A stretch of 64,000 nt of DNA from Branchiostoma floridae (taxonomy: Eukaryota; Chordata; Leptocardii; Amphioxiformes; Branchiostomatidae), in contig NC_049994.1 in the NCBI RefSeq assembly GCF_000003815.2, positions 15,534,409-15,598,408 of the forward strand. The letters run 5' to 3'. Each line of letters begins with the position of its first letter. Position 1 is the first letter of the stretch. Positions 10,819-46,800 of this stretch are shown here, in pieces. The notes under the pieces are model-generated. The model was not told where the DNA came from and did not search any database. It saw only the letters and a program-made list of their open reading frames with translations. A program made the position numbers and the translations under genes.

Positions 10819-13800
10819 CTGTGAACAACATATTAGTCTGATTATAAAATCTACAGGACTTATTGGTACACAGATATACACATGTAGCCCAATCATAAAA
10901 TATACTGTAACAGTACTGTTTTTTGTACATGTACATGTACACATACCTTGATAGATCCAGAAAATGCACAATATACGGAAGTTTATGTAATACCATACAC
11001 ATTTGAAGACTGTTGGTCCAGGAGTAGTTTTATAATACAACCATTGTAATTTTCTGATCCCAAATTGGTAGTCTATCATCCTCTAGGGTAACAATATGAG
11101 CAATTGAGATGATACACTGTATCACCATGACCACTGGCAGACAAAAAGCAGGTGGAAGACAAAATACTATTTTACATATTAATATGTGATTTGATTCTAA
11201 TTTGCTAACATTCTGGTAGACACTTGTACAGCAATTGCTTGTATGCATTTCTTTATATTAGCATATATTGTTCACACTGTGACTGAAGGTGTCTAGATGT
11301 GTTTAGATGTGTTACCAATGTTGTATTTTTTCATCGCTCATTGCATTGCTTGTTTTCAAAAAAGAATTGTCATTCTAAACCTCAAGCAGCTAGGGTAATG
11401 ATGCATTTTAGAGAGGCATACACTATATAACCGAAGGTTTCCAGATGAAACCATTTCATGATATAGGGGTGTCCAAGCTTACCCATAACAGTAGTTGTGT
11501 GACCACTATGTTGCCAATGGTACAGGCCAGGTGCAGGGCTGTACATTGTATAACTGAAGGTTTCCAGATGAAACTATTTCATATGGTATAGGGGTGTCCA
11601 AGCTTACCCATAACAGTAGTTGTGTGACCACTATGTTGCCAATGGTACAGGCCAGGTGCAGGGCCGTCCGTCCGTCCCCTTCCAGCGTCATGTTCACCTC
11701 CGAGGGGTTGGCATGCGCCAGCAGGAGAACCACGGTACGGATGTCATCGTGTGTGACTCCCTCCAACAACTGCTGGCTGATGGGAACGTCCGGGTATGGC
11801 GGCGGCGCGAGAAACTCTTTTCTCTCGTACTTTGCTCTTATCCACGATTCCTTCTCCTCTCTGTAAGAAAAAAAAAGAAAATTGGTTTGAGTTCCAACAC
11901 CAAATGGTGCTGTGGGCATTGCCCGTCTCTGTAGTACTGGACCATAGAGCTTTGTGCAATCATTACAGCGGCGTGAGAAACTCTTTTCTTTCGTACTTCG
12001 CTGTTATCAATGACTCCTTTTCCTCTCTGTGAATAGATATGAATAAAAATGTTTGACTCTGAAAGTCAAAGTCCTTCTTGCTCCAAATAGTGCAGTGGGT
12101 GGTGCCCATCTCCATTTCTGTAGCTTTGGGCCACACAGCTTTGTGCAATCACTACAGCAGAGACTAGTCTACTGGTTCTTGACTTTCAAGAAACATATAA
12201 TTTTGTTCCGATCTACAACTTAAACATAATGGGAATGAAAGCTACTGTACATTCATCAGGCCAAAATAGTTCAATTTGTTGGTAATACTGTACTCAAAAC
12301 TCTCTTTTATGCTTGCTTTTCCTCTCCATGGGAGGAAACTAAATTCAGATTGTTTTGAGTCAAAAGAAAACTGTACTTTTTTCCTAATTCATAGATGTTT
12401 CACAAGAAATGCGGTCCATTGCCTTGAGGATAAACAAGCTTCAGAAGCACAGATCTTGACGAAACTGTAGCAAGTTGATAATATATAGATAATAATATAA
12501 AAATATTATTCCATGCATTGCATTATTTTCTGTTACACTTAACATTCTTTTCATGTGTGTGAATAAAATAAGTATAGGAAGAAGAGCTCCACAAACCTTT
12601 GAGAGTTTGGGGTAGGTTTGACTCTTCCCCGGGGGTTCGCCTCCCACACACTGTTAGCCAGAGAGTTTCCGATGGACGTCATGACCGTAGCCAGCTCCGT
12701 GGGCCAGTCATCCAGGTCCAGAGAGCGTACTCTGGACAGGTGAGTACCCAGATTTCTGTGGACCCCTGAGCATTCTATACACATCAGCGCACCAAGGTTC
12801 AAACTAGCCCAGTCAGGACCTGTGGAGAAAAAGGCTTAACTGTGATACAAGAAAACTTAAATCATGGAACCTACTCTCCACAGTTGTGTGCCCAGATTTC
12901 TGTGCACACCTGAACACTCTATACACATGCATCAGCGCACCCAGGTTCAAACTAGCCCAGTAGAAGAAAAGAGTTAGAGTGTGATACTTGTAAGTTGTAG
13001 CTAAGGGAAACTAAACCGATGTATTTGCTGACGTTAGGTGTGCACTCTAGATCTGAACACTCTATACACATCAGCGCACCCAGGTTCAAACTAGCCAAGT
13101 CAGGACCTGTACAGGAAAAGGCTTAACTGTGATACAAGAAAACTACTGTGCACACCCGACAGCACACACACAGGTTTAAACTACTAGCCCAGTTGGGATC
13201 TGAGGAGAAAATGATTTTGATACCCATTGCCACAAGAAAACTACATTATTGCTTTTGTAATTCTATGGCGTTGGACAAAATGGATTCAGCTGTGAATGTC
13301 TAATAGATAAACAGAACCGTTGGGTTTCCTTCACTCTTAATGACAGGGAAATTCCACACTACTTATAAGTAACAATTTGTCCGTTGTTATTTGCAGAATT
13401 TTAAAATTGGGATGCTATCCTAAGGCAGTGTATGTATATCATGATTTTAACAGCGAGACTTACTTGGTGCCTCACAGTCCACACAGAAGGCGTTCCCGCG
13501 AATGTTGCGGATGGCCTGGATAACTTGCTGGTCCCCGTAACTGTTATTCCGGTTCTGTGGTGGGAATATCGTCAATTCAGCATCAATCATATTGTAAAAG
13601 ATAGAAGACAGTAAGTGCAAAGTTTGACTGATTGACTGATTGGTTGAATCTATGTCTTCCAGGGCTGTCCCAAGGACCTGTCCCTCTGTCCAGGGATGGA
13701 AATTTGCTTGTTAATGTTTAGACTGACAAAAATTTAACCCCACCGGTCCAAAAATTCTGAACTTCATGACATGAAACTGACGAAAATGTAAAATTTGTAA

Positions 13801-43800: not shown

Positions 43801-46800
43801 AGACTGCCACATTGAAATCAGTAATAAGATCTCTAAAAGAGTGAGATGTTTCAGCCACTGCCTTGAGGCATAATTGCTTCTTACCTTGTCTCTTCAAGCT
43901 GTTTCTTACAATGTACCTTGAGTTTCCACCATCTTAGGTACCTTGTATCTTAAATCATCTTGAGAAATAATTGTTGCTTCTTACCTTGCATCACCATTAT
44001 CTTAAGATATCAAGTGACATAAGTGTTGCTTCTAAGCTTTTCTTAAGATATAATTATCGCTTTGTACCTTGCATCCTCAGTATCTTACAGTACCTTGAGA
44101 CAAGAAGCTGCGTCTTACCTGTGTCCCCACCATCTTGATATAACTGTTGCTTCTTATCTTTCACTATCTTCATAATATCTTGAGAAATGAATGGTCCCAA
44201 CTTTGGGTCCCAATAATATTAGGGTATCTTTACACATGATCATTGCTTCTTATGTCGAGTCTCCATCATCTTAAGATATCTCGACACACAACCTTGCATT
44301 TCCACTATCTTAACAAGATCTTGATTTGCTTCTTTCTTTGCATCCTAACATTTTCAGATATATCAAGACATAATTCTTGGTTATTACCTAGCATTCTACT
44401 ATCTTAATAAAATCTTGAGATGTAATAGTTGGTTCTTACTTTGCATCTAACATCTTCATATATATCAAAACATAATTGTTGGTTCTTACCTTACATTATA
44501 CTATCTTAATAAGATCGTCATATATAATAGTTGGTTTTTACCTTGTATTCAATCATCTTAAGATACCATGGTACTTTTTATCCTGCATTTCCACTATCTT
44601 AATAAAATGTTGAGATACAAGAGTAGGTTCTTACCTTGTGTCCCCAACTGTTTTAGGATACCTTAACACATGATCATTGCTTCTTACCTTGTGTCTGATC
44701 ATCTCAAGATATCATGGTACTTCTTACCCTGCATTTCCACTGTCTTGATAAAATCTTAAGATTAATTACTGTAAATGCAGAAACTTTCGCGGTGGATTAA
44801 TATTTGCGGTTCTCACGGTGGCCGCTTCACCGAGAACTTAAAACCACCGCGAACATGTTTCCATGGCAATAAGAGACTACAGTGCATGATGTTCCGCGAA
44901 ATTAAAACCACCGCAAAAAGGCCTTTTTCCCACTAACGCAAAATTAGATCCCCCGTAAAATTAAAAGCATTTACAGTAGTTGGTCCTTACCTTGCGTCCC
45001 CACCAAGATCAGTGGAAGCTCTGCTGTGTTTCTGTAGTTTGCGATCCTGGCGTAATACTGATAAACGGCATTGAAGCTGTCCTCATTCTCCAGGCTGAAG
45101 ACAAATATTACAGCGTCCACCCATCCTGAGAACTGCAGTGAGAGACAATTGTTTTAAACAAATATCACAGCATGCTCATTCTGTGAACTGCAGTGAGAGA
45201 CCATTTTTAGTGTTGAACAAATATTACAGCATCTACCCATTCTGAGAACTGCAGCGAGAGACCATTTTTAGTGTTGAACAAATTTTACAGCATATACCCA
45301 TTCTGAGAACAGCATTGAGAGACAAATCTTGAAATTGTTAGAATGCTACTAGGAGGATTAAGTTTCTGCACACAGGTTTTATTCAAAATTGATATGAACT
45401 TTTGTCTTTGATAGTACAAATTATATGTTCGTCATTTCAAAAGAAACAAATGTAGCAAATGTCAAGTGTTTTTACAGGTTATACTTACAAATGTACATAT
45501 TACTCTTAATTTCTATTACTCATGCTATTTGTACCTGTAGTGATAAAGACTTCTCCTATCAAAATTACAAAACTTTCGATGTGGATGCAATATGGAAGCA
45601 AAATATGTGTGGGTTGAGCTTCCTTTAGAAACCTCTAAGATTTGCAACAAGACACCCTCTCTCACCTGTTGTTCGGGTGGTCCCCCCTCATCCCTGATCA
45701 GGAGGAGGTGACTCTGGCAGTCTGCTACAACCTCCTTCTTAAACCGACCACCTGGAGACAAATGAATAAAGAAGTTCAATTCTTTTCAACGCCTTAAGGT
45801 TGTAGGGTGGGGCTACTCTATGTCCTATAGCCCTTTGTCACACAGTTGATCTACAAGCACTACAGCAGGGGGCTAGTCTACTGGTAATGGTGTATGTTCA
45901 ACTTCACTATTCTTTCTCATACATGAAAGCACTGAGTGCTAAGCTGAGAAAGCAGTACAGGGTTTCAACCAGCGGTAGTATGGTAGTTGAGCACACACCT
46001 CTATCAACAGACTAGTGCCCTGCTGCAGTGATTGCACAAACATTGTGTGGCCCAGGGCTACTGAAACAGAGATGGGCACCATCCTACGCACCATCAAGTG
46101 AGGGAAGGACTTCAGTAACTTTTTTAAACAAGGTGTACCCCAACAATTCCAAGTCCCTCAGGACATTTTTCTTCCAGGTCATTAACTGAACTCCCCTCTT
46201 CCTCCTTCTTTTTCCTTCTTGTGGAATCCAGTTACCAAAGTAGGAATATGTACTTATTCATGTGTCCCATACCTCAAGGCTTTAGTGCGAACCAATACGC
46301 CTTAGGCAAGGGCAGGTCACATTCAGGTGATTAACAACACAGCCACAGAATACCACTTTTAATTTGGATAGACACAAGGCATTCGGAAAATTTCATCAGA
46401 CTCAGTCTAATATTTCAACTTCTTGCTAACCACATTGTTGAGTGCCATGTCAATTGAAAGAACAAATCTAAATCTATTTCTAGTCAAGCTATTTTGATGT
46501 CTAGATGTAGCCAACACCAGTATTTGACTTTGAGTAATCTCTTTTTACAATAATGTTAATGACTGTCCATTGTCAAATGTATGTCTACAATGTCTCTACC
46601 ATGTAGTTGCAATTAGCCTGCGGGCATGAACTTGCAAATAACTTTCAATCAAATTGAACGACTTGAGCTCTTTTCAGCAAGCAGGTGTCCAATGCTTTGG
46701 TATATACATGGGTTGGAAAGAATTTGCTGGAAGGTAAGATGTTGCATGCGTAGTCCAGTAGTTAGTCGCCCTGCCTCTGCAACTAGAAGCCGTGAGTTCG

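Follow-up and report, generated by a model that had tools for sequence, protein, structure and literature searches.

Why do the ends of exons, splice sites included, recur as arrays in the adjoining introns of an amphioxus gene? The gene encodes AGAP (Arf-GAP with GTPase, ANK repeat and PH domains) and lies on the minus strand of a 64,000-nucleotide stretch of the Branchiostoma floridae genome (RefSeq assembly GCF_000003815.2, contig NC_049994.1, positions 15,534,409 to 15,598,408), which we refer to as the window. The copies are very likely amphioxus mirages: local tandem duplications in introns, some of them starting inside an exon, that arise without regard to exon edges and whose decoy splice sites are mostly tolerated.

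Duplicated exon edges in AGAP

The gene model began from a tblastn search with human AGAP1 as the query, and exon ends were then set by splice sites and reading frame. Eighteen exons were mapped, from 47813 to 10618, and together with domain families these data define the gene from exon Ea, the most upstream one mapped, to the stop codon (10618..47813). Exons E5, E6, E7, E17 and E18, on which the following centers, correspond to Ed, Ee, Ef, Eo and Ep. Spliced without decoys, the reading frame is intact. Splicing 17 of these exons (exon 1 and an exon at 16695-16579 omitted) gives a protein, 808 amino acids as scanned, with Ras, PH, ArfGap and Ank family matches; its GTPase-domain piece matches solved chains of AGAP1, CENTG3 and centaurin gamma 1. 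A likely exon 1 was found in the same genome about 54 kb upstream of the mapped exons, beyond the window; this exon and its long intron were left out of all statistics. The genome searched comprises 513 Mb in 431 contigs, with the window inside a contig of 19.15 Mb.

For each of 35 AGAP edges, 40 bp on either side were aligned against 2 kb upstream and downstream and against shuffled flanks. Intron-side copies that contain the end of the exon along with its splice site are present at seven edges belonging to five exons, including both edges of E5 and of E18. Scores were 87 for the E5 acceptor (45132), 37 for the E5 donor (44991), 51 for the E6 acceptor (42082), 81 for the E7 acceptor (40025), 131 for the E17 acceptor (12819), 56 for the E18 acceptor (11860) and 138 for the E18 donor (11608), against shuffle maxima of 22-28 at these seven edges. 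The E7 donor (39727) is borderline, with 19 of 22 positions matching and a score of 29 compared with a shuffle maximum of 22. At the other 27 edges the intron-side score within the 2-kb flanks was not above that of their own shuffles, and exon-side copies with a score of at least 30 were found at none of the 35. The initial annotation of this locus had named the same five exons, with both edges of E5 and E18 affected, and the scan confirms it.

It had also described the arrays as differing in age and in unit size (about 55-440 bp), with which our measurements agree. Identity is highest at the E18 donor (113/119), followed by copies of E7 (52/55) and E17 (85/92, with further copies at 48/56 and 41/52), the E18 acceptor (73/90), the E5 acceptor (79/98) and E6 (47/61); the E5 donor array is strongly decayed. 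Units are spaced 49 bp apart at the E5 donor, 55-61 bp at the E5 acceptor and up to about 390-440 bp at E6, and the number of copies ranges from one at each E18 edge to about 19 units at the E5 donor. Exon E5 (44991..45132), placed by the gene model and the edge scan, is flanked on its acceptor side by three decoys of intron tail plus exon start (45143..45325), two of which have the AG. The E6 acceptor, true site 42082, is copied at 43320, 42919 and 42526 in a repeat spaced by about 400 bp (42049..43628). Copies of the E7 acceptor (true site 40025) are at 40436, 40265 and 40149 (39979..40472), those of the E17 acceptor (true site 12819) at 13199, 13106 and 12951 (12728..13211), and the single copy of the E18 acceptor (true site 11860) is at 12026 (11802..12158). 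All of these features are on the minus strand, as is the E18 donor duplication (11419..11667), which consists of two copies of a 125-bp unit with the true donor at 11608 and the decoy at 11483. By eye, GCC is present at both breakpoints of this unit, which fits slippage or microhomology-mediated duplication, even if one case proves little. The copies are local tandem duplications that include the edges, in keeping with the local slippage or duplication proposed earlier. Duplication of whole exons, as in mutually exclusive exons, was rejected since each copy carries just one exon edge.

The array behind the E5 donor (43850..44768, minus strand) was resolved by wrap-around alignment into about 19 strongly decayed units of 49 bp, each with an exon end and 5' splice site; the limit at 43850 is the edge of the scan rather than a proven array end. 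Its nearest unit is about 220 bp away from E5. Between them sits a 208-bp insert (44769..44976, minus strand) resembling a miniature inverted-repeat transposable element (MITE), with inverted ends CTGTAAATGC/GCATTTACAG and TA on both sides. When the insert is left out, the alignment of the array with the E5 edge and the sequence that follows has 70 matches in 84 positions and a score of 98, compared with 37 when it is kept. Judging from this match across the joined flanks, the array very probably originated at the exon edge, which it once abutted, and the element came in later and parted them. Elements of this MITE-like family, about 210 bp long with CTGTAAATGC ends and TA target sites, are located at 44976-44769, 2221-2438 and 2670-2881, with a partial one at 61500-61598.

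Exon edges are not measurably preferred within AGAP

The initial annotation held that random intronic duplication would not overlap exon edges this often. For AGAP this was not borne out by any of the tests applied. Local copies were called at a threshold T of 36 as standard, with a stricter T=50 and with T=33 also tried. At 1531 grid positions in AGAP introns away from exons, with (TG)n and (CTCA)n tracts masked, an upstream copy is present at 17.4% and a downstream copy at 19.5% (T=36), against 7 of 35 edges, or 20%. Circular shifting of the edges gave a mean of 5.9 compared with the 7 seen, with P(>=7) of 0.38 at T=36, 0.47 at T=33 and 0.23 at T=50. In a permutation of array spans, the check by which the initial annotation would have its proposal refuted, 6 of 16 arrays touch an edge where 4.9 are expected (P=0.34), or 7 of 16 against 4.95 once the E5 donor array is counted (P=0.15); tallied by edges instead of arrays, 6 or 7 are seen against about 9 expected. 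Purely intronic 80-bp windows beside the edges have copies in 4 of 35 cases, compared with the 17-20% background. The idea that AGAP edges are preferred seeds was therefore rejected, as grid, circular-shift, permutation and intronic-window tests show no excess. AGAP edges are not measurably preferred, and local duplications abound in the introns of the gene. With the edges hit at the background rate, no special mechanism is needed.

One-sided local copies are found at about 2% of window positions outside AGAP (10618-48113), making them eight to nine times rarer than the 17-20% in AGAP introns. Over 264 kb around the gene, scanned with short tandem runs masked, copies occur at 8.8% of positions on average and are very patchy, from 1 to 31% per 10 kb.

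Properties of the decoy splice sites

Of 13 AGAP acceptor decoys, 11 score weaker than the true site and two score stronger. Decoy acceptors 40265 and 42526 are those that score above the true site of their exon. An in-frame stop is introduced by all 13 acceptor decoys, by the E18 donor decoy and by all 14 listed donor-like sites behind E5. Taken with nonsynonymous changes, these stops make it unlikely that the decoys are exons.

We counted changes in the exon parts column by column at 12 AGAP and CLASP edges (CLASP being the neighbouring gene treated below), leaving out the E5 donor array. Among 78 changes, 17, 16 and 45 fall on codon positions 1, 2 and 3, and 42 are synonymous and 36 nonsynonymous. 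A first count by cells (12, 9 and 47) had hinted at a strong third-position bias; counting each column once weakens it, and strictly constrained decoy exons were rejected.

By a score matrix built from AGAP's own 17 donors, the 34,650 bp of AGAP intron sequence other than intron 1 contain 19 donor-like sites that score at least 8. Ten of them belong to the E5 donor array, where they fall within 910 bp.

Relation to amphioxus mirages

The initial annotation regarded the phenomenon as not described. This is incorrect, as mirages have been published for the amphioxus Adh3, globin and PGBD5 genes (PMC3087553, PMC3902484). Mirages are tandem duplications across exon-intron boundaries, found at both boundaries in globins, and the genes concerned include Adh3 of B. 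floridae and B. lanceolatum and the globins BflGb6 and BflGb9 (PMC3087553). Adh3 units measure 10-72 bp and globin units 150-160 bp; globin mirages retain AG/GT and differ in length between haplotypes, and Adh3 is somatically unstable (PMC3087553). Data on Adh3 and RT-PCR on globins suggest that splicing is regular despite the mirages (PMC3087553). For lancelet PGBD5, tandem repeats over exon splice sites are described, with Adh and troponin C cited (PMC3902484).

The AGAP copies resemble these cases (Adh3, globins, PGBD5, troponin C) in being minisatellite-like duplications of a boundary, at 5' or 3' exon ends, in several copies and many with AG or GT. Units span the exon-intron boundary at 7 of 35 AGAP and 6 of 30 CLASP edges, and they are of minisatellite size at 49, 55-61, 125 and 166 bp, with E6 larger at about 400 bp. 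That the genome is of a cephalochordate is supported by 71 matches to GFP exons on contigs C4, C17, C14 and C3, with at most 91% identity to a Branchiostoma GFP; a Pfam GFP profile search of the genome gave no matches but was insensitive, given the 71 from the protein query. As mirages have been published in amphioxus, the AGAP copies are new examples of a known phenomenon, with several of them in a single gene. Compared with the mirages described there, AGAP differs in having seven affected edges on five exons, two of which are affected at both ends, and an E5 donor array of about 19 units plus an inserted MITE-like element. New details are the very probable former contact of the E5 donor array with its exon, the MITE-like insert and the donor-site cluster.

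Similar events are known elsewhere. Human segmental-duplication genes show minisatellite expansion at exon-intron boundaries that is able to alter splicing there (PMC2812944). The repeats can there give rise to new introns or altered transcripts in recent paralogues, whereas the AGAP arrays are intronic in a conserved gene. A potato RdRp gene likewise carries a tandemly duplicated segment that includes splice signals (PMC4974935). Unlike that case, no new intron is evident in spliced AGAP, and the listed acceptor decoys bring stops.

Local tandem duplications, or minisatellite births, would arise in introns through slippage during replication, repair at microhomologies or unequal exchange, with no regard to where exons end, and some would begin within an exon and carry its end and splice site into the intron. 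Selection would demand just one complete exon with a working site, which would leave the copy in the intron, to decay like any intron sequence. The intron-side position of the copies may thus reflect the requirement that one intact exon remain. We take the site adjoining the intact exon to be in use, with decoys presumably tolerated for the most part, as is reported for other amphioxus mirages.

CLASP and other neighboring genes

The gene next upstream of AGAP is CLASP, named from its match to human CLASP1. Intron-side copies are present at 6 of its 30 fixable edges, compared with a background of 10.8% and 10.3% (1724 positions). Six of 21 CLASP exon pairs were dropped because their homology segments were non-contiguous, and the scans of CLASP, of a PX/SNX-like gene and of intronic windows were unmasked. 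Two of the fixed CLASP donors score poorly, exon 13 at 1.3, which is among the six copied edges, and exon 20 at -1.9. Of the 80-bp purely intronic windows in CLASP, 6 of 30 have copies against a background of about 10%; for AGAP and CLASP together the figure is 10 of 65, with about 9.6 expected by hand calculation. Since CLASP has the same kind of structure, AGAP is not alone. We conclude that a blind duplication process suffices for the two genes. Copies at 13 of 65 tested edges in two neighboring genes suggest that mirages may be common in amphioxus and not rare.

The CLASP exon that ends in EVRK (WTTEPKSVEVRK), with its donor, has six downstream intron copies at 116630-115400 (window coordinates, outside the window). 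Five further CLASP edges carry copies, among them an acceptor with three. A gene on the plus strand at 1-4700, tentatively named PX/SNX-like, had local copies at none of its six edges, which were picked by eye.

Alternative explanations

Several observations weigh against a wholly blind process with tolerated decoys. CLASP edges exceed the intron background about twofold (circular shift P=0.097 at T=36 and 0.027 at T=50), and combining AGAP and CLASP by Fisher's method, by hand with centered windows, gives P of about 0.16 at T=36 and about 0.04 at T=50. An edge-favoring mutational mechanism (composition steps, R-loops or reverse-transcribed pre-mRNA) that seeds arrays at exon edges would account for this excess. 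Its expectation fails in AGAP, where the edges do not exceed background, and in the pooled purely intronic windows; moreover, the true exon half changes slowly, and edge copies therefore stay recognizable longer than intronic ones do. We consider such a mechanism unlikely, while an edge preference of up to about twofold is still compatible with the two genes sampled. The remaining adverse observations concern sites that have been kept. GT or AG is retained in 13 of 13 CLASP copies against about 10 expected from identities by hand. AG is at the aligned place in 11 of 13 AGAP acceptor decoys, or 9 of 13 counting homologous AGs alone by eye, where the identity of the flanks predicts 8.7. Conservation in the E5 donor core is 0.81, compared with 0.71 in the rest of the unit, ranking second of 49 windows. 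The third-position share of exon-part changes is 0.58 (bootstrap 0.43-0.67), with a binomial P of 0.010 against the 0.44 that we estimate if the exon is constrained and its decoy free to change, although 0.44 lies inside the bootstrap interval over edges. These data, with the concentration of strong donor-like sites in the E5 array, would fit selection for decoys, which the initial annotation had raised as a way to slow or tune splicing. Clusters of splice-site copies would then recruit U1 or factors of the 3' splice site and so modulate splicing, or shield the intron from premature polyadenylation. However, edge arrays are not in excess in AGAP, AG retention there is near expectation, most acceptor decoys are weaker than the true site and 36 of the 78 changes are nonsynonymous. 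In addition, counting only alignments that cross the edge biases towards kept sites, and the hints from retention and third positions arise in part because just alignable copies were counted. Strong selection was rejected on site scores and AG retention. The hints that remain (donor core, CLASP GT/AG, third positions) are weak and mixed and do not establish selection, and we see little chance that the decoys are selected. Were the copied sites kept, E5-type arrays could act as intronic platforms for U1 or splice factors that affect splicing or transcript integrity, and mirages would form a lineage-specific regulatory layer, for which we see a very small chance.

Tolerated duplication also has to be set against an error of assembly, in which two haplotypes or misassembled reads are joined in tandem. 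The E18 donor units differ by just 5-6% or so, which falls within the possible range of two amphioxus haplotypes. Most copies are 5-30% diverged, unit length varies between 49 and about 440 bp, one of the arrays contains a MITE-like element, the window is on a long contig, and a DNA search with exon E17 matched this window alone (three places). In the literature, one globin mirage was aberrantly assembled in the genome draft (PMC3087553) and PGBD5 copy numbers differ between two versions of the locus (PMC3902484); against this, the reported mirages are backed by trace data and RT-PCR for globins (PMC3087553) and by resequencing for PGBD5 (PMC3902484). An artefact, which the initial annotation had named as what would refute its proposal, is therefore exceedingly improbable. 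Intron gain under way, with decoy exon fragments turning into exons and making new introns, has been proposed as a model for amphioxus globins (PMC3087553), and gain by tandem duplication is described in the potato gene (PMC4974935). For AGAP it is highly improbable, as the acceptor decoys and the E18 donor decoy bring stops, and the AGAP model keeps its frame without decoys and uses one site per edge.

Two further features of the gene lie apart from the duplicated edges. The intron array at 29646-30465 has seven 116-bp units that are about 96-97% identical; no other long array in the gene is as uniform, and it is away from exon edges. The possible extra exon at 16695-16579 has a length that is a multiple of three and a proline and basic content like that of the preceding exon, and is perhaps a cassette exon.

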